Below are positions 45,223 to 60,758 of a stretch of DNA of 64,000 bases, piece by piece; within the stretch, counting starts at the first letter, position 1; every line of letters starts with the position of its first letter. The notes under the pieces are model-generated. The model saw only the letters and a list, made by a program, of their open reading frames with translations, made no database searches and was not told where the DNA came from. The translations under genes and the position numbers were made by a program. Location: assembly GCF_023205095.1 (NCBI RefSeq), contig NZ_CP046242.1, positions 2,159,001-2,223,000 on the forward strand, in the 5' to 3' direction. The stretch is from Bizionia sp. M204 (GTDB taxonomy: Bacteria > Bacteroidota > Bacteroidia > Flavobacteriales > Flavobacteriaceae).

Positions 45223-47478
45223 ATGATTCCAAAAGTATTTAGAGAGGTCATTGACCTTGGTGATGGCAGAGAAATTTCCATCGAAACAGGAAAATTAGCA
45301 AAACAAGCTCACGGTAGCGTTGTTGTGCAGTCAGGAAAATGTATGTTATTATGTACAGTTGTTTCCAACTACGAACAAAAAGACCTTAATTTTTTACCCT
45401 TAACGGTAGATTATCGTGAAAAATTTGCTGCTGCAGGTCGTTACCCAGGAGGCTTCTTTAAAAGAGAAGCAAGACCTAGTGATGGCGAAGTATTAACCAT
45501 GCGTTTAGTAGATCGTGTTTTACGTCCATTATTCCCAAAAGATTATCATTCTGAAACACAGGTGATGATTCAATTAATGTCTCATGACGAAAATGTTATG
45601 CCAGACGCTATGGCTGGATTAGCTGCTTCTGCTGCTATTCAATTATCCGATTTACCTTTTGAATGTCCAATCTCTGAAGCACGAGTTGGCCGTATTAATG
45701 GTGAATTCATTATTAACCCAACATTGGCGCAATTAGCAGAATCTGATATTGACATGATGATTGGTGCTTCTGCTGACTCTGTAATGATGGTGGAAGGTGA
45801 AATGGATGAAATTTCTGAAGAAGAAATGGCAGATGCTATTAAATTTGCCCATGAAGCTATTAAAATTCAATGTGAAGCTCAAGTAAGGTTAGCTGAAGCA
45901 TTTGGAAAAAAAGCCGTTCGTGAATATGAACCAGAAAGAACCGATGAAGATTTAGAGAAAAAAGTGTATGACATGGCTTACGATAAAGTGTATGCTATTG
46001 CAAAAGCTGGATCGGCTAAACATGAAAGAAGTGATGCATTTCAACAAATAAAAGAAGATATTAAAGCCACATTTTCTGAAGAAGAATTAGAAGATTACGG
46101 CGGATTAGTATCTGAATATTACCACAAAGCTGAAAAAGCAGCTATTCGTGATTTAACCTTAAATGAAGGATTGCGTTTAGATGGTAGAAAAACGGATGAA
46201 ATTAGACCAATTTGGTGTGAAGTAGATTACTTACCATCTACACACGGTTCTGCTCTTTTTACACGTGGAGAAACACAAGCTTTAGCTACAGTAACTTTAG
46301 GAACATCTAGAGATGCTAATCAAATAGATATGCCATCGCAAGAAGGTGAAGAGCGTTTCTATTTACATTATAACTTCCCACCATTTTGTACAGGTGAAGC
46401 AAGACCAATTCGTGGAACTTCTCGTAGAGAGGTAGGTCATGGTAACTTGGCGCAACGTGCTTTAAAAGGAATGGTACCAGATGAAAGTCCGTATACTGTA
46501 CGTATAGTTTCAGAAGTATTGGAATCTAACGGCTCCTCTTCTATGGCAACTGTTTGTGCAGGAACTATGGCACTAATGGATGCTGGTGTACAAATGATTA
46601 AGCCTGTATCTGGTATTGCTATGGGATTAATTTCTGATGCTGCTTCTGGTAAATATGCTGTATTATCTGATATTTTAGGTGATGAAGATCATTTAGGAGA
46701 TATGGATTTTAAAGTAACAGGAACTGCAGATGGTATTACTGCTTGCCAAATGGATATTAAAGTAAAAGGTCTTTCTTATGAGATTTTAGTAAATGCATTA
46801 AAACAAGCTCGTGAAGGCCGTTTACATATTTTAGAAAAACTAGTTGAAACAATTGCTAAACCAAATGCAGAAGTTAAGGAACATGCTCCAACTATGGTAA
46901 CCAGACGTATTCCTAACGAATTCATTGGGGCTTTAATTGGACCTGGTGGAAAAGTGATTCAGGAAATGCAAAAAGAAACCGATACAACCATTGTTATTAA
47001 CGAAGATCCTGTAACGGAAGAAGGTATTGTTGAAATATTAGGCGTTGGTAAAAAAGGTATTGATGCGGTTATGGCAAAAATTGATGCTATTCTATTCAAA
47101 CCTACAGTTGGCAGCATATATGAAGTAAAAGTCATTAAAATGTTAGATTTTGGTGCCGTTGTGGAGTATACAGATGCACCTGGAAACGAAGTGTTATTAC
47201 ACGTAAGCGAATTAGCTTGGGAACGTACAGAAAATGTATCTGATGTGGTAAACATGGGCGATGTTTTTGATGTGAAGTATTTCGGGATAGATTCTAGAAC
47301 ACGTAAAGAAAAAGTATCGCGTAAGGCTATTTTACCAAAACCAGAAGGGTTTGTAGAAAGACCACCAAGAGACGACAAACGTTCAGGTGGACGTGATAAC
47401 AGAGGTTCTCGTGACAACAACAGAGGTCGTGATAATCGTCGTGATGACAGAAAACCAAGAGACGACAAGAAGGACTAA
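45223..47478 (+). CDS. pnp: Polynucleotide phosphorylase
   Basis: The 751-aa 3'-5' exoribonuclease has two RNase PH domains (about residues 1-215 and 300-540), a KH domain with '[18 protein letters not shown]' (about residue 566) and an S1 domain (about 625-700). The phosphate-binding and catalytic stretches '[15 protein letters not shown]' and '[16 protein letters not shown]' are present. The C-terminal tail of about 40 residues is an Arg/Gly/Asp-rich low-complexity region ('[16 protein letters not shown]'), common in Bacteroidota. It degrades mRNA by phosphorolysis. Confidence 0.97.
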
Positions 47479-47534: not shown

Positions 47535-47640
47535 TTTATTTAAAATGTTTACCAAAAGCCAATTGGAGAATGCCATAAATAAAATTATCTTTACGTTGTA
47601 ACACATTTAACCGAACCAAGAAAATAAACAATTTGAAAGT

Positions 47641-47648
47641 TATATTTG
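47641..47648 (+). promoter_or_regulatory. Candidate -7 box inside cassette A
   Basis: TATATTTG fits TAnnTTTG and lies within the cassette, 79 bp before the CDS start. The unusually long leader of this cassette (132 bp, against 24-53 bp in most array cassettes) would accommodate its own promoter. No TTTG at the right distance is visible. Confidence 0.35.
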
Positions 47649-47727
47649 AGAATGTAGTTTCTATTTTTACCAATTAAAAAATAATTTGAAATACCAAAAG
47701 TATATTAATCCATTTAAAATACACATT

Positions 47728-48132
47728 ATGAGAAAAAGCATATTATTTATCGTTTTAGCGTTAGTTAGTAATGTCTTCTTTGCACAAGAATCGAATTCTA
47801 GTAATTCTTTCTATATTAATATCTTTATAAATCAGAACAAAGATGTTAGAGTAGAATCTAACCTCGTAACAATGAATGACATTGGAGATGAAGTAAAAAA
47901 TCTTATATATAATCATCGGTTCAAAGTAGATGAGAAAATAACTTATAGGATTTATGCCGACAAAGACTTGGATTTAAGTTACATAATGGATACTGAACAA
48001 AAAATATTAGAAGCATACAGTTATAACGTAAAAAGAGAAAGATATCTTTTAGAAACCGTAAAAATGAATATAGATGGTCCGAATTGGTTAGAAAAATTAG
48101 ATGGTTTTGATATTAAACCCAAAAAAGGCTAA
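47728..48132 (+). CDS. Secreted hypothetical protein, cassette gene (ExbD-like region)
   Basis: A 134-aa exported protein with a signal peptide (residues 1-19, ending F-F-A-Q). The middle 'YRIYADKDLDLSYIMDTEQKILEAY' (in parts: RIYADKDLDLSYIMD) resembles the periplasmic domain of ExbD/TolR ('ADKDLxYxxV'), but the membrane helix anchor of ExbD is replaced by a cleavable signal, so it would be a free periplasmic version. The frame opens at 47686 but the ATG at 47728 gives the clean signal peptide. It is the only gene of cassette A. Function unknown. Confidence 0.72.
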   Translation: MRKSILFIVLALVSNVFFAQESNSSNSFYINIFINQNKDVRVESNLVTMNDIGDEVKNLIYNHRFKVDEKITYRIYADKDLDLSYIMDTEQKILEAYSYNVKRERYLLETVKMNIDGPNWLEKLDGFDIKPKKG

Positions 48133-48151
48133 TTGAGAAATAAAAAACGTG

Positions 48152-48284
48152 TTACAACACTATGTATATTAAATGCTTGTTTTAATATTTAATTAATAGG
48201 AAGTGCATGTTTGCTTTAATCTGATTTTCGGAACGAAAATCCTCTGATACAAATTCGCATTATTCTTAAACATAAACATTGTAG
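48152..48284 (+). repeat. attC-like site of cassette A (R' partly mutated)
   Basis: The 133-bp site runs from ttacaac (48152-48158) to attgtag (48278-48284). Its arms pair imperfectly (atgtatattaaatgc with gcattattcttaaacat). A central gattttcggaacgaaaatc hairpin takes the place of the gattttcc/ggaaaatc stem of the main array. The expected G of the right GTTG box is A here, which may disable it. Confidence 0.65.
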
Positions 48285-48304
48285 TTGATGCGAAAAACCT
48301 GCAT

Positions 48305-48901: not shown

Positions 48902-48907
48902 AGCACT

Positions 48908-49003
48908 TCTTACAACCACACACATAACCTATTGCAAGTTATAACCTAGTAACTTAAATCCTCTCGGATTTTCACTCAACGAAATCATAGCCTAATCCAA
49001 TTG
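48908..49003 (+). repeat. Degraded attC-like remnant
   Basis: Directly after the stop codon, gcacttcttacaac (48903-48916) has the form of a left R box, followed by acataacctattgc. The central aatcctctcggatttt hairpin (48957-48972) and cactcaacgaaatcatagcc, which resembles the right arm of the 60.7-kb site, remain. The terminal GTTG is lost. Its left box matches the cassette start at 48279 only partly (9 of 13). Confidence 0.45.
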
Positions 49004-49097: not shown

Positions 49098-51281
49098 CTA
49101 GATTTTAGATGAATACTTTTGGATCATCTGCAATAGTTTTCGCGTATCAAAAGGTTTGGCAATAATATCATCTATTCCGGATGCTATTGCCGTATCATAG
49201 ACTTCTTCTCTTTCAAAAGCTGTTAGAGCAATTATTGGAATTTCAATCCCTTGTTCTCTAATAAGCTTTGTGGTTTCATAACCGTTAATTTTTGGCATAT
49301 TGATGTCCATTAATATAGCATCATAAGTGGTGTTCTTTAACAGTTCCAAAGCCATAAAACCATCATCGGCAATTTCACATGTATAATTATTATTTTCCAA
49401 AAGCTTTTTAGTAACCATTTGGTTTATCTTATTATCTTCCACCAAAAGTACTTTTAAACCAAACTCGTCCAATAAGGGATTATCCGTTTTATTTATGGGC
49501 TTTTCTTGGATGTCCTTTTCATACGCCAACGGAATTGTAAATTCAACCGACGTACCAATGTTTTCTTCACTTTGTAATGAAATGGTTCCTTTAAATAATG
49601 TTACCAAATTTTTAACGATACTTAAGCCTATTCCTGTACCTTGATAATCATCCTCTTTTCTATTAATCTGGACAAATTTCTCGAAAATTTTATCTTGATA
49701 TTCTAATGGAATTCCAACACCAGTATCTGAAATTGTAAAGCAAATATAAACTAAATGTGCCTCTTGGCTTTCCAACTTTGCTGTAATGGTAACCGTACCA
49801 TCGGTAGTAAACTTTAAAGAATTACTTACTAAATTGATAATAATTTGAGATAATCGGATAGAATCTCCTAAAACAAATTGTGGTATTTTAGAGTCCACCT
49901 CGACCACAATTTTATTGCGGTGTTTTTTTGGCAATTACCATAAGTGAATCCTTAATGGTATATAGCTTTTCTTCAATATCAAACAGGTTATTATCCAAAA
50001 CCACCCTATTTTCTTCAAATTTATGAACCTTTAAAACATCATTAACTAATGCTAAAAGGTAATTAGCAGAAAATTTAAGTGCTTTTAAATGCGGGCTATT
50101 TTCTAGTTCTTTGTGCTCGGTTTCAATAATATCTGTAATCCCAATAACGCCATAAAGTGGCGTCCGTAATTCGTGGCTAATGGTAGAAACAAACTGCGTT
50201 TTTAAAAGCGTGGCTTCCTCAGCTTTTTCTTTGGCTACCAATAAAGCCTCGTTGGCATGTGTTAATTCTTCATTAGTAATTTGTCGTATTTTATTCAATT
50301 TAAATTGATAATACAGCAGTAATAGTGTGGCTAAAAAAACGACAATTACTAAAATAGATAGCAATTTTAGATTATTAAATTTTTGATCTTGAATTTCTTT
50401 TTCGGCCTCTACTTTCCCAATTTTTTGTCTTAACAGTCTAATGTTTTCATTCTGTTCTAAATCTTGTAGTACTTTTTGTAAAGAGTCTGATTTATGAGCA
50501 AATTTTTCAGACTTATCAATGGCATTGGTTTTTTTGTAAAAATCCGTTAGCAATTGATAAATTTCTAATTCGTGCGAATTAGGAAAGTTTTTGGCTTTTT
50601 GAAGACAAATTTCATAGGCTTTTAAATAATTTTCTTCTGCTAAAGCATAGAATTTGTGCCATTCATGGTAGTTTCCTGTTAAGTAATAATAATAGTATTT
50701 TAGCTCGCTTTCCGCTTCAAATTCATGTAAATGCGGCTTTATTTCAAGTAATAAAGCTTGAGCTTCTTCATAACTTTCAATGCTAATATACGTAGTTGCC
50801 AAATTTACAAGGTTGTATAAATATTCAACCTTGCTTATATTTTCAGAGTGATTTATTGCCTTTAAATAATATTTTATTCCGGTTTCAGTGTCCTTTTTAT
50901 TAAAAGCGTATAAATTACCAAGGTTGCTATAAACCCAACTTAAAATTGTGTCATTTTGTATCTTGGTTGCGTAAATAAGCGATTTATTAAAATAGTCAAT
51001 AGCATTGCCATCATCAGCTACTTGGGAGAAGTTTAAACCTATTAAGTTATGGCTATCTGTCTATTGTCATTATGCTTAAGTGCTAAAGAAAGTGCCTTTT
51101 TAGCTTTTTCTAAAGATTTATCATATTCAGAAGAATTAAAAAACACTCTTGAAGAGTCAATAAATCTAGTAATTTCTTTATCTACACCTTTTTTTTCGTT
51201 GTTTAATTCCTGGCCAAAAGAAAAAGACAAATTAAAAATAAATGAAAATATTAAGAATATATTTTTAGTAGTTGGAATCAT
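49098..51281 (-). pseudogene. Hybrid sensor histidine kinase broken by two frameshifts
   Basis: Read across three frames the region encodes one protein of about 725 aa: signal peptide and TPR repeats (51281 to about 50450), a membrane helix, a coiled coil, HisKA with 'STISHELRTPLYG', HATPase_c with 'NLVSNSLKFT', 'DTGVGI' and 'GTGIGLSIV', and a receiver domain with 'LLVEDNKINQ', 'ILMDINMP' and Lys in 'IIAKPFD'. The first shift lies at about 51042-51060 after the first ~78 residues, leaving 50803-51041 open in another frame. The second lies at a run of seven T (A on the coding strand) at 49923-49929; one A fewer would join HisKA to HATPase. Either a true pseudogene or two consensus errors. The TPR-HK-REC layout is common in flavobacterial two-component systems. 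Confidence 0.85.
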
Positions 51282-51521: not shown

Positions 51522-52958
51522 ATGGCTCTAAAAAGTACACGCTCGTCAAAATCGCAACAAATCAAAATAACAAACCTTCAAAAATTAAAAGCTTTTTTAA
51601 GCCAAACATTTATTGGAAGTGATAAAACCCAAAACGTTTATAATAGGATTACATTAATTAGCACGTTGGTGTTTATTGCTATGGGTGTTTATTTATTTAC
51701 CGTTTTTCATAATGATTTTGAGCAATTTAATGCAGACCGTAGAAGCTCCATTATTGGTTTAACATTTATGATTACAGCCGGAATTCTATTTATATTTAAA
51801 GTCTTTTATGTCATTTTTATGGCATATAATTATTTTAAGTATCGCGCTGTGGAATCTGTTTCGGATGAAGAATTACCAACAGTTACCATAATCGTTCCTG
51901 CCTATAACGAAGGCAAACAAGTTTGGGATACCTTAATGAGTTTGTCTAAAAGTGATTATCCCCAAGATAAAATACAGCTTTTAGCTATTGATGATGGGAG
52001 TTTAGATGATACTTGGGATTGGATGGTGGATGCCAAAAAACAGCTTGGAAACCGATTAGAAATCCTTCAACAACCAGAAAATAAAGGAAAACGTCATGCT
52101 TTATATCGTGGGTTTAATTTAGGTACTGGTGCTATTTTTGTAACTGTGGACAGTGATTCTGTTGTAGACCAAAACACCTTACGTAATTTGGTTAGTCCGT
52201 TTATAACCGATGAAAATTGTGGTGCAGTAGCTGGTAATATTCGTGTTTTGAATAATAAAAAAGCCATGCTTCCAAAAATGCTGGATGTGAGTTTTGTAAT
52301 GAGTTTTGAATTTGTCCGTTCTGCCGAAAGCAGGTTAAATTCCGTTTTATGTACACCTGGCGCATTGGCTGCTTATAGAAACACCGCTGTTTTTAAGTGT
52401 TTACCCGATTGGATTAACCAAACATTTATGGGACAACCGTCAGACATTGGCGAAGATCGTGCCATGACGAATATGATACTAAAACAAGGTAAGCATGTAC
52501 TATTTCAGCGAAATGCTGTTGCGTATACAAATGTTCCCGAAGAATATCCTGGGTTATATAAAATGTTTATAAGATGGGGACGCAGTAACGTGCGCGAAAA
52601 TATTAATATGGCAAAATATGTGTTCACCAATTTTAAAAATGAAAGTAAGTTTGGAACGCGACTGTTATTTATTAGTCAATTCTCTAGAATTATCATGACA
52701 TATCCATTCGTGCTATTTATGTTATTCTTTGTTTTAATGCACCCTTTATTATTTTTGGGTTCTACCCTATTAAGTATTTTAGTAACCTCAACATTTTCGG
52801 TTTTATTTTATGCACATCGCTACGAAATAAAAGAATCTTTTTGGGCATATACCTATAGCATTCTTTATACATTTGGTCTGTTTTGGATAGCACCTTATGC
52901 TATTGCAACAGCAAGTAGACGTGGTTGGTTAACACGCGGATTAGCAGAAAAAAAATAA
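51522..52958 (+). CDS. Membrane GT2 glycosyltransferase (BcsA/hyaluronan-synthase-like)
   Basis: The 478-aa protein has two N-terminal membrane helices (about residues 42-62 and 75-105), a cytoplasmic GT-A domain and three to four C-terminal helices. Catalytic features are 'TIIVPAYNEG', D-D-G-S ('AIDDGSLDDTWD'), 'TVDSDSVV' (D-x-D), 'GEDRAMT' (T-E/G-E-D-R) and 'FIRWGRSNVREN' in place of Q-x-x-R-W. This is the arrangement of processive synthases that make and extrude beta-linked polysaccharides. The sugar cannot be predicted; no cyclic-di-GMP PilZ domain is fused. The gene is monocistronic. Confidence 0.9.
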   Translation: MALKSTRSSKSQQIKITNLQKLKAFLSQTFIGSDKTQNVYNRITLISTLVFIAMGVYLFTVFHNDFEQFNADRRSSIIGLTFMITAGILFIFKVFYVIFMAYNYFKYRAVESVSDEELPTVTIIVPAYNEGKQVWDTLMSLSKSDYPQDKIQLLAIDDGSLDDTWDWMVDAKKQLGNRLEILQQPENKGKRHALYRGFNLGTGAIFVTVDSDSVVDQNTLRNLVSPFITDENCGAVAGNIRVLNNKKAMLPKMLDVSFVMSFEFVRSAESRLNSVLCTPGALAAYRNTAVFKCLPDWINQTFMGQPSDIGEDRAMTNMILKQGKHVLFQRNAVAYTNVPEEYPGLYKMFIRWGRSNVRENINMAKYVFTNFKNESKFGTRLLFISQFSRIIMTYPFVLFMLFFVLMHPLLFLGSTLLSILVTSTFSVLFYAHRYEIKESFWAYTYSILYTFGLFWIAPYAIATASRRGWLTRGLAEKK

Positions 52959-56214: not shown

Positions 56215-56260
56215 TTACACCTTACTATGGATAGGCTTTTTTTCTTATCTTTAGGTGTAA
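56215..56260 (+). promoter_or_regulatory. Inverted repeat over the integrase promoter region
   Basis: ttacacct (56215-56222) and aggtgtaa (56253-56260) are perfect 8-bp inverted repeats 30 bp apart, ending 20 bp before the integrase ATG. Between them TATCTTTA (56246-56253) resembles a -7 box with the last G changed. The arrangement suits an operator for a repressor of the integrase or a recombinase autoregulatory site; this is inference from position. Confidence 0.4.
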
Positions 56261-56277
56261 CATATTAATACACAAGC

Positions 56278-57444
56278 ATGAACGCCATAACTCTAGAACC
56301 ATTTACACATAATGCAAAAAGCTGCATTGCCATAAAATTTGCTTATAATTTTGAAACAAAAGAATATATAAAAAAATTTAAAGGAGTTTATTGGACAAAA
56401 ACACATAGAACATTTTATATTTATTATGATGAAGTTAGACTGGAGGATTTTAAAAACCACCTTAAAAAATCAGGTATACGGCTTTTAGAAAAACAAAATG
56501 AAAGGAGTGTGCCACGTTATAGCAAGGGTTTTAAATTAGAGCTAAAACCTTTAAATCAAGAAAAAACGCTAGTTTATCGACATTTTTTAACATTCCTTAA
56601 AGGTAAAAGATTTAGTGCAAGTACAATAGCTTCGTATGGCGGATTTATACTCGAATTTTTGCGCTTTACAGATTCCAAACCGGTAAACAACCTCAACGAA
56701 AATGACGTGAGGCACTATATTGAATGGGCTGTAGAAAAATTAAATTATGCCATTAGCACACATAGACAAATGGTAAGTGCCTTTAAGCATTTTGCTTATT
56801 TTTATCCAGCGTGCTCCATAGATACAGATAAAATTTTTATGCCTAAAAAAGATAAAAAATTACCTGTTATTTTAAATATTGAAGAAGTGCTACTTATATT
56901 AAAAGCGACTAGAAACTTAAAGCATCGTATTACAATAGGCATGCTATATGGATCTGGATTACGAATTGGAGAAATTATAAACCTAAAACTTTCTGATTTT
57001 GATTTTAATCGGAAATTATTACATATACAAAATTCAAAAGGCAGAAAAGACAGATATACAACCATAGCCGAAAGTTTATTTCCATTATTAAAAAACTATT
57101 ATTCCGCCTACAAACCAAAAACATACTTTATTGAAAACCCAAAAAACGGTAAATATAGTCCGGAATCAATTCGCTCTTTTTTAAGGAAAAGTACTAAAGC
57201 TGCGGGAATAACAAAACATGTCACACCTCATACACTGCGGCATAGTTATGCCACGCATATGTTGGAACAAGGAACAGATATTCGGTATATACAAGAGCTT
57301 TTAGGACACAGCAGGCCAGAAACCACTATGATTTATACGCAGGTTACAAAAAAAGATTTACAGCAAATAAATAGCCCTTTGGATACTGCTGTAAAAAAAT
57401 TATCTTTACGGGATAACGGTAACTCAAAACTTACTATATCCTGA
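56278..57444 (+). CDS. Tyrosine recombinase of the cassette array (integrase)
   Basis: The 388-aa protein carries the tyrosine recombinase active set: Arg229 ('GSGLRIGE'), Lys257 ('KGRKDRY'), His318 and Arg321 ('HTLRHSYATH'), His344 ('LLGHS') and Tyr353 ('MIYTQV'). An N-terminal domain of about 80 residues ('VYWTKTHRTFYIYYD') precedes a SAM-like DNA-binding domain at about 95-175 and the catalytic domain. The ending 'INSPLD' recalls IntI and XerC. The extra segment that integron integrases carry between the Lys and HxxR regions is missing: only ~60 residues without the ALERK/W-W-F motif lie between Lys257 and His318. It points towards the cassettes, whose first junction is 43 bp after its stop. 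I infer that it moves them. Confidence 0.88.
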   Translation: MNAITLEPFTHNAKSCIAIKFAYNFETKEYIKKFKGVYWTKTHRTFYIYYDEVRLEDFKNHLKKSGIRLLEKQNERSVPRYSKGFKLELKPLNQEKTLVYRHFLTFLKGKRFSASTIASYGGFILEFLRFTDSKPVNNLNENDVRHYIEWAVEKLNYAISTHRQMVSAFKHFAYFYPACSIDTDKIFMPKKDKKLPVILNIEEVLLILKATRNLKHRITIGMLYGSGLRIGEIINLKLSDFDFNRKLLHIQNSKGRKDRYTTIAESLFPLLKNYYSAYKPKTYFIENPKNGKYSPESIRSFLRKSTKAAGITKHVTPHTLRHSYATHMLEQGTDIRYIQELLGHSRPETTMIYTQVTKKDLQQINSPLDTAVKKLSLRDNGNSKLTIS

Positions 57445-57495
57445 CATATTTACGGGATATAAGTAATAAAAGTTACTATATAACGAGTTAGCCAC
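57431..57495 (+). promoter_or_regulatory. Candidate attI and junction with the first cassette
   Basis: The first cassette begins at taacgaG|TTAGCCAC (G at 57487). A 9-bp direct repeat, ttactatat, occurs at 57431-57439 (end of the integrase gene) and 57473-57481, 42 bp apart, and the second copy lies within gttactatataac, a small palindrome touching the core. Such repeats could be extra recombinase-binding sites like those of attI1. The site has no long inverted repeat, so it differs from the attC-like sites as attI does. Confidence 0.6.
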
Positions 57496-58902: not shown

Positions 58903-59033
58903 TGCCAACACCGTGTATAATTAATGGCTAGTTCGAGCTTGCTTACGAAAATCCTCGCGGATTTTCTATTCGGTTTTTATTTGCTAAATTAGGTACTTAA
59001 ACACGCCACTAATCATACACAAACACGTTGTAA
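58903..59033 (+). repeat. attC-like site 2
   Basis: From tgccaac (58903-58909) to gttgtaa (59027-59033). The outer arms gtgtataattaatggc and gccactaatcatacac pair; the central hairpin gaaaatcc (58947-58954) tcgc ggattttc (58959-58966) is perfect. Nearly identical to site 3. Confidence 0.88.
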
Positions 59034-59059
59034 GTAATGCCGAAAAACCCAGAAACCAA

Positions 59060-59854
59060 GTGAATAAAACAATATTTGAAATTACCAAAATGGATTGTCC
59101 TTCAGAGGAAAATCTTATCCGAATGAAATTGGACGGAATTTCAAGCATTGCGAATTTGGACTTTGATATTCCGAATCGAAAATTGACCGTTTTTCACAGC
59201 GGAGAAATTGACCAAATCGAAAAGTCCGTTATCGAATTGAATTTAGGTGGAAAAAAAATCTCAACGGAACAAACCGACCGAACGGAATTTAAAGAAAACG
59301 AAAATCAGAAAAAACTACTTTGGTCTGTACTTGCCATAAATTTTGCTTTTTTCATTATTGAAATGACAACAGGAATTATCTCAAAATCTATGGGACTTGT
59401 TGCCGATAGTTTAGATATGCTTGCGGACAGTTTTGTGTACGGAATTAGTTTGTTTGCGGTTGGCGGAACAGTAATAAAGAAAAAACGGATTGCCAAACTT
59501 GCTGGATATTTTCAAATAATACTTGCGATTATTGGATTTGTAGAAGTCTTGAGAAGATTTTTCGGAAAAGAGAAACTTCCCGATTTTTCAACAATGATTA
59601 TCGTTTCGATTTTTGCACTTATCGCAAACGGAATTTGTCTTTACATTTTGCAAAAGTCAAAAAGCAAAGAAGAGGCACATATGAAAGCGAGTATGATTTT
59701 TACTTCGAATGACGTGATTATCAATTTAGGAGTTATAATCGCTGGACTTTTGGTAAATTGGTTAAGTTCGAGCAAACCTGATTTGATTATTGGAACAATC
59801 GTTTTTATTTTGGTAATTCAAGGAGCGTTTAGGATTTTGAAATTAAGTAAGTGA
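59060..59854 (+). CDS. Cassette 3: HMA-like domain fused to a CDF-type cation transporter
   Basis: The 264-aa protein (GTG start) has an N-terminal ferredoxin-fold domain of the HMA kind, about residues 3-70, whose metal loop is 'TKMDCPSEEN': one Cys instead of C-x-x-C. A six-helix cation diffusion facilitator domain follows (about 85-262) with 'MGLVADSLDMLADSFVYG' in helix 2 and 'FTSNDVIINLGVI' in helix 5. CDF proteins usually export Zn2+, Co2+ or Fe2+ in exchange for protons; a C-terminal cytoplasmic domain is lacking. Here helix 5 has N-D instead of the usual H-D metal pair. It is the only cassette gene with a plain transport function. Start 32 bp after the junction. Confidence 0.85.
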   Translation: MNKTIFEITKMDCPSEENLIRMKLDGISSIANLDFDIPNRKLTVFHSGEIDQIEKSVIELNLGGKKISTEQTDRTEFKENENQKKLLWSVLAINFAFFIIEMTTGIISKSMGLVADSLDMLADSFVYGISLFAVGGTVIKKKRIAKLAGYFQIILAIIGFVEVLRRFFGKEKLPDFSTMIIVSIFALIANGICLYILQKSKSKEEAHMKASMIFTSNDVIINLGVIIAGLLVNWLSSSKPDLIIGTIVFILVIQGAFRILKLSK

Positions 59855-59870
59855 ACTAAAAAAGCACTAC

Positions 59871-60001
59871 TTACAACAACGTGTATAATTAATGGCTGGT
59901 TCTCGCCTACTTACGAAAATCCTCGCGGATTTTCTATTCGGTTTTTATTTGCTAAATTAGGTGCTTAAACACGCCACTAATCATACACAAAACCGTTGTA
60001 G
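59871..60001 (+). repeat. attC-like site 3
   Basis: From ttacaac (59871-59877) to gttgtag (59995-60001). It differs from site 2 in few bases outside the boxes, keeping gaaaatcc-tcgc-ggattttc in the centre, while its left box is specific for the cassette (reverse complement gttgtaagtagtgc against the cassette start ttgtaagtaatgc). Confidence 0.88.
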
Positions 60002-60625: not shown

Positions 60626-60758
60626 CTACAACACCGGCTATAGTTCATTGCTTCTGACTTTCCTTTCGGAAAGTCCTCGCAAATTTGCTATCTTCGGTTT
60701 ACGGCGGAAAATCCTCGCGGATTTTCACGCAACGAAACCATAGCCAAACACGTTGCCA
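60626..60758 (+). repeat. attC-like site 4 with two central hairpins
   Basis: From ctacaac (60626-60632) to gttgcca (60752-60758). The arms read ggctatagttcattgc and gcaacgaaaccatagcc, a different sequence from the other sites but still paired. It contains both hairpin types: gactttcc/ggaaagtc (60656-60675) and gaaaatcc/ggattttc (60707-60726). Confidence 0.87.

Follow-up and report, generated by a model that had tools for sequence, protein, structure and literature searches.

The polynucleotide phosphorylase gene (pnp) of Bizionia sp. M204 is followed by a unit with a single coding sequence enclosed by short inverted boxes, which raises the question of how a gene cassette came to lie 8.0 kb from the start of an integrase gene (56278). 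In an earlier note on the 64,000-nucleotide stretch of DNA analysed here (the window), this unit was described as an orphan cassette about 8 kb from the integrase, a distance borne out by the measurement, and its origin was left between insertion at a secondary site and survival from an array. The analysis described below indicates that it is very probably the first cassette of an ancestral, now dead integron that lay between pnp and a glycosyltransferase gene. The features on which this reading depends are collected in Table 1.

Table 1. Coordinates of the pnp locus and of the living integron behind proA (window numbering).
Feature	Position	Strand	Basis or remark
pnp (polynucleotide phosphorylase), host gene upstream of the relic	45223..47478	+	ORF
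Relic of integrase 3' end and first part of attI, including promoter-like TATCTTTA (47586-47593)	47542..47595	+	
Orphan cassette 1	47596..48278	+	Box pair; B. arctica homology start
CDS of cassette 1, 134 aa, signal-peptide-like start	47728..48132	+	ORF
attC-like site closing cassette 1	48145..48291; core 48156-48280	+	R1, 43.2 bits
Orphan cassette 2, decayed	48279..~49000	+	DNA alignment to G024 locus L135
CDS of cassette 2, 198 aa	48305..48901	+	
Degraded attC-like site of cassette 2, R' again A-TTG	48914..49000	+	
Glycosyltransferase gene, far side of integron locus	51522..52958	+	Right-hand neighbour of pnp in G004, G022, G024
Half of pnp-type terminator (ATAGGCTTTTTTT) and leader, upstream of window integrase	56231..56254	+	G001 match
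Integrase of living integron, downstream of proA, 388 aa tyrosine recombinase	56278..57444	+	
attI region of living integron	57390..57487	+	

Cassette 1 is confirmed as a genuine integron-type cassette. With the cuts assumed at G47595/T47596 and A48278/T48279, it opens downstream of pnp with G/TTGTAACACATTT (47595/47596; a slash within a sequence marks the cut), as a direct reading of the window showed, in agreement with the earlier note. Its closing left box is AAACGTGTTACAAC (48145-48158), the reverse complement of which, GTTGTAACACGTTT, matches the start box at 13 of 14 positions; the sole difference falls at position 11 counted from the G, which is the same as the 12 of 13 matches with a mismatch at position 10, counted from the T, given previously. 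The right box reads ATTG instead of GTTG, the A at 48278 agreeing with the G-to-A change that had been noticed there. A search for pairs of 14-nt boxes with at most one mismatch and a spacing of 200-2500 bp recovered only this pair between 47000 and 52000, and no comparable pair on either strand of positions 1-47000, i.e., in 94 kb of strand sequence.

The cassette 1 protein matched no model when Pfam and NCBIfam were searched, and its gene was found in four of 199 family genomes. A homologue with 81% amino acid identity occurs in Bizionia arctica, where it is a cassette of an array with nine strong sites (locus L129) at which no pnp gene is present. DNA homology with B. arctica begins exactly at ACG/TTGTAACA and extends to the site, which fixes the cassette start at ACG/TTG. 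Estimates of dN (0.094) and dS (0.566) for this gene give a dN/dS of ~0.17.

The site that closes the cassette was characterized using a covariance model, R1, made from nineteen main-array sites aligned on the bottom strand, with the orphan excluded. Alignment of the array sites reveals an inner L-stem of 11 predicted pairs, eight of which have compensating changes on both sides. With E values up to 0.1 accepted, R1 recovered 68 genomic sites, of which the main array holds about 39. The orphan site was among those found (E=2.7e-6 over the whole genome), with several of its L-arm stem pairs broken. The boxes of the main array follow a code in which the start box equals the reverse-complemented end box except at position 11, which is A in the start box and G in the end box. 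This difference was present in 26 of 31 cassettes in correct register, delimited by covariance-model matches rather than by the box rule and counted by hand; seven that were tabulated one base out of register were excluded. Since it corresponds to a G-T pair on the bottom strand, the apparent mismatch is a strand signature. In circular form, the bottom strand folds more stably in 21 of 21 array sites, a result that is supportive and not independent because the position-11 rule had served in part to select them; for orphan site 1 the predicted energies are -20.4 (bottom) vs. -17.7 kcal/mol (top). Neither orphan site has an intact right GTT triplet, both reading ATT. The homologue of cassette 2 in G024, a genome of another genus, has ACGTTG where the window has ACATTG, and the G-to-A change is therefore derived. 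The suggestion in the earlier note that this change may have frozen cassette 1 is plausible.

Read from sequence, two orphan cassettes lie beside pnp, of which the second is the more decayed; neither it nor the integron relic in the left flank had been noticed previously. The start box of cassette 2 is ATTGTAGTTGATGC and its end box GCACTTCTTACAAC (48903-48916), and DNA alignment sets GTTGTAAGTAATGC and GTTGTAAGTAGTGC of G024 against ATTGTAGTTGATGC and GTTGTAAGAAGTGC of the window. The G024 copy starts directly after an intact site (98.8 bits), and the protein encoded in this intact-looking cassette (G024:C27) is 92% identical to that of cassette 2, while a homologue in G137 is 55% identical. 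The gene occurs in five of 199 family genomes, so that both orphan genes show the patchy distribution typical of cassettes, and it gives a dN of 0.040, a dS of 0.336, and a dN/dS of ~0.12. A full attC was considered for the cassette 2 site and rejected, as R1 with filters off produced only a partial, sub-threshold match (48931-48973, 13.2 bits); by eye, the site resembles the one at 60630-60754. The cassette status of this second unit is taken from the G024 comparison.

The DNA between pnp and cassette 1 bears on where the two cassettes came from. It aligns locally to 57351-57410, which holds the last integrase codons and the start of attI, with a score of 54 (z 6.2) that none of 500 dinucleotide shuffles reached (mean 25.4, maximum 46). 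The relic is only ~55 bp long and the alignment needs gaps; taken singly, the shorter attI relics from relatives align less well with the left flank (z 1.8-3.4). The left flank and the window attI share the end AAAATTATCTTTACG, beyond which the attI runs on with GGATAAC for ~75 bp and the orphan enters the cassette directly. The TATCTTTA motif recurs in the attI relics of G001, G002, and G005. Because it resembles the -7 box of Bacteroidota promoters, it may be a retained attI-proximal promoter from which cassette 1 could still be transcribed. We also considered whether a cassette and an integrase leader might meet at the left junction, given the resemblance of TTATCTTTAGTTGTAATCC in G001 to TTATCTTTACGTTGTAAC, with GTTGTAA shared between them; this reading was dropped, as the ~55 bp match the integrase 3' end and attI better and B. 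arctica fixes the cassette start.

Comparison with relatives places further integron parts at the same locus. The pnp gene was located in 59 of 60 genomes, most of the relatives being draft assemblies, and the DNA downstream of it was read; its C-terminal 192 aa are 92-98% identical in same-genus genomes. In four of the five genomes from the same genus, integrase, attI and/or cassettes lie in the interval from pnp to the glycosyltransferase gene. In G001, an integrase gene 39% identical to that of the window follows the pnp terminator directly, its aligned stretch being reported with one stop codon. The G003 locus carries a 68-codon integrase start, an N-terminal relic with stop codons that shares 52 of 68 residues with the window integrase and is followed by an apparent insertion sequence. 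The pnp interval of G001 and of G003 is interrupted by contig breaks and is therefore not readable in one piece; contigs that begin upstream of the glycosyltransferase gene contain four sites in G001 and three in G003. G002 has two cassettes and an integrase relic that runs directly into attI as a fusion, and G005 has attI with cassettes, so that the remnant adjoining the orphan cassettes has parallels in G002, G003, and G005. In the remaining same-genus genome, G004, as in the outgroups G022 and G024, the glycosyltransferase gene comes immediately after pnp and there is no integron. The orphan genes themselves were found at pnp in none of the relatives searched. An IS3-like element starting with TGACCCGTCCTGAAATAAGG was also observed just after a cassette start box at L092 and L091 (G001 and G003), and the same start sequence comes after the pnp-locus integrase relic of G003.

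The living integron lies behind proA, where attI adjoins the integrase gene and the array starts at G/TT (56278-57487, with the array cut at 57487/57488). The main array, 8-10 kb from cassette 1, has about 39 sites and continues beyond the window. A CDF-type cation efflux cassette occurs in it twice (59027-59877 and, beyond the window in the same numbering, 88160-89010), the copies being of the same length and 97% identical including the site. The boxes of the interval 85501-87050, likewise beyond the window, do not match (GTTAGCAAACATTA vs. GTTGTGCGTTCGTT), which suggests a missed site or two fused cassettes.

The integrase of this integron is without the additional (I2) domain specific to IntI: its alignment with the Vibrio integrase 2a3v breaks at that domain, which has 62 residues in Vibrio vs. 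19 here. It scores 203 bits against TIGR02249 in two separate stretches (cut-off 265), and its best NCBIfam model is XerA/archaeal (216.4 bits, cut-off 220). Because the IntI-defining insertion is missing, the relic at pnp is called "integron-like, relic" and membership of the IntI family is not claimed. Judged by its anatomy, which comprises attI, cassette boxes, structured sites, and an adjacent recombinase, the system would nevertheless work like an integron.

Relics at both loci also inform the relationship between the two integrons. The proA locus carries attI and a cassette in G001 and G002, and in G004 a scrap resembling the integrase C-terminus together with cassettes. Identity to the window attI is 97/99 for the G001 proA relic, 81/99 for G002 proA, 77/97 for G005 pnp, and 54/64 for G002 pnp. 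The genus thus has pnp and proA as integron homes, which are 8 kb apart and differ in their losses. The proA integrase leader includes ATAGGCTTTTTTTCTTATCTTTAG; this is the second half of a pnp-type terminator, and it is attached to the leader exactly as at the G001 pnp-integrase junction. Because of this 24-nt exact match, the proA copy is read as pnp-derived, an origin that the match suggests without amounting to proof.

These observations are best explained by decay of an integron at pnp. While that integron was active, a tyrosine recombinase would have placed circular cassettes into attI, cutting after the G of G/TT, and the start and end boxes of each cassette would have paired into a structured site that was most stable on the bottom strand. 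A deletion at pnp would then have left only the last ~50 bp of the integrase gene and the promoter where attI begins, and ~75 bp of attI would have been lost. The first two cassettes would have been left behind, with their sites decaying through changes that include the G-to-A in both right boxes and probably cost them their mobility, while a sister integron of the same lineage survived 8 kb away behind proA. This reading does not account for a ~2.2-kb histidine kinase region that separates the relic from the glycosyltransferase gene. The region corresponds to a hybrid histidine kinase on the minus strand (49098-51281), divided among three ORFs (49098-49934, 49912-50802, and 51042-51281), and looks frameshifted or decayed.

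That ordinary chromosomal genes have acquired accidental inverted boxes is an idea to which we attach almost no probability. The shortness of the boxes and the A+T richness of the genome speak for it, but chance resemblance is difficult to reconcile with the emptiness of the 94 kb searched for box pairs, the genome-wide E-value of the site, and cassette homologues that reside in arrays elsewhere, and it is refuted by the boundary matches in B. arctica and G024. Insertion at a secondary site, the first of the two origins offered in the earlier note, would have the proA-locus integrase deliver one or two cassettes to an attG-type GTT site by pnp. Insertion of cassettes at attG sites has been reported experimentally (Loot et al., 2024, as cited in PMC12444791), and about ten further site loci, some with a single site, lie outside the main array. 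This route would require an unrelated intact target, yet neither the flank nor the relatives display one. An empty target, defined as pnp followed by uninterrupted sequence of the ...TTATCTTTACG/TTGG... type without integron traces, had been put forward as the sign of insertion; none was found downstream of pnp in G001-G005, G010, G011, G022, G024, or G034, and the loci of G004, G022, and G024 have no GTTG-type junction. Insertion at a secondary site is disfavoured by the left flank, which is an integrase/attI relic instead of an arbitrary target, and by the integron parts at this locus in four of five relatives. We regard this origin as very unlikely; the alternative of an array remnant is the part of the earlier proposal that stands.

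The two orphans might also make up a small cluster with no integrase of its own, still used in trans by that of the proA locus. They share the site family and box code of the living array, and both ORFs are intact with the low dN/dS values given above. Loss of the G of GTT from both right boxes, the broken L-arm pairs, and the sub-threshold second site speak against continued mobility, and we consider such a reservoir unlikely. It bears on activity and not on origin, and could coexist with decay of the pnp integron.

Cassette sites are also found elsewhere on the chromosome. R1 identified about ten more loci outside the main array on contig G000:C1, several of them with single sites, at 178-185, 348, 811-819, 838-839, 878, 1338, 1895-1897, 2003, 2103, and 3085-3086 kb. 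Site orientation flips near dnaA (514 kb), being + below it and - above it up to 2252 kb, and is + again at 3085 kb, with one weak exception at 878 kb. With a terminus located beyond 2252 kb, the cassettes would face away from the origin; in sedentary integrons, cassettes are directed away from the replication origin (PMC11023631).

Integrons of this lineage thus have fixed chromosomal homes, turnover, and datable fossils, and cassettes that are left behind stay as ordinary genes. One locus in six species provides a natural series of living integron, integrase-only relic, attI relic, cassette relic, and empty site. The orphan also strengthens the case that the host system is real, as its cassette boundaries hold up in comparisons across genera and R1 finds sites in 43 of 60 relatives, among them nearly every one from the same family. 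A survey with IntegronFinder 2.0 reported a single complete integron in Bacteroidetes proper, in Salinibacter ruber (PMC9024848), and in the open-licence literature we found no paper on such chromosomal integrons in Flavobacteriaceae or Bacteroidota. The host system looks new, being widespread in this family and having an integrase without the IntI-specific insertion. On balance, we lean slightly towards a family-wide class of Flavobacteriaceae-type integron that standard searches have missed, with an I2-less recombinase and long wobble-marked sites; in this genus it would have its homes at pnp and proA, 8 kb apart, of which one is a copy of the other, and decay would have been independent in each species. 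The missing I2 domain poses a testable question: is I2 needed for recombination of folded sites outside the IntI family?

Several known systems resemble parts of this locus. Degraded integrons are one proposed origin of CALINs, clusters of attC sites lacking an integrase (PMC8618304; PMC9024848), and the orphans are similar to these in that their cassettes carry attC-like sites while no integrase gene lies next to them. The sites here belong to a different structural family, and where CALINs are defined by at least two recognisable attC sites (the IntegronFinder 2.0 default; PMC9024848), one site here is above threshold and the second is partial. Insertion at attG would likewise leave an isolated cassette far from attI, with the difference that the flank here is an integron relic and that no empty target was seen in relatives. 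The living array shares with sedentary integrons of the Vibrio type its length, its single-gene cassettes, the conservation of sites within the genome, and the favoured bottom strand. Unlike the Vibrio type, its integrase is codirectional with the cassettes and closer to XerA-type recombinases, and its R boxes are 14 nt long with a conserved bottom-strand G-T pair. The closest parallel is in Xanthomonas, where integron decay of this kind is already known: a degraded chromosomal integron lies downstream of ilvD, and X. cucurbitae, which has its integron elsewhere, has kept two former cassette genes at ilvD, the ancestral locus (PMC12444791). Both systems have one conserved home behind a housekeeping gene and repeated integrase loss across species, whereas the Bizionia locus differs in its Flavobacteriaceae-type host, in an integrase without the IntI insertion, and in a relic that retains a recognisable integrase 3' end and part of attI.
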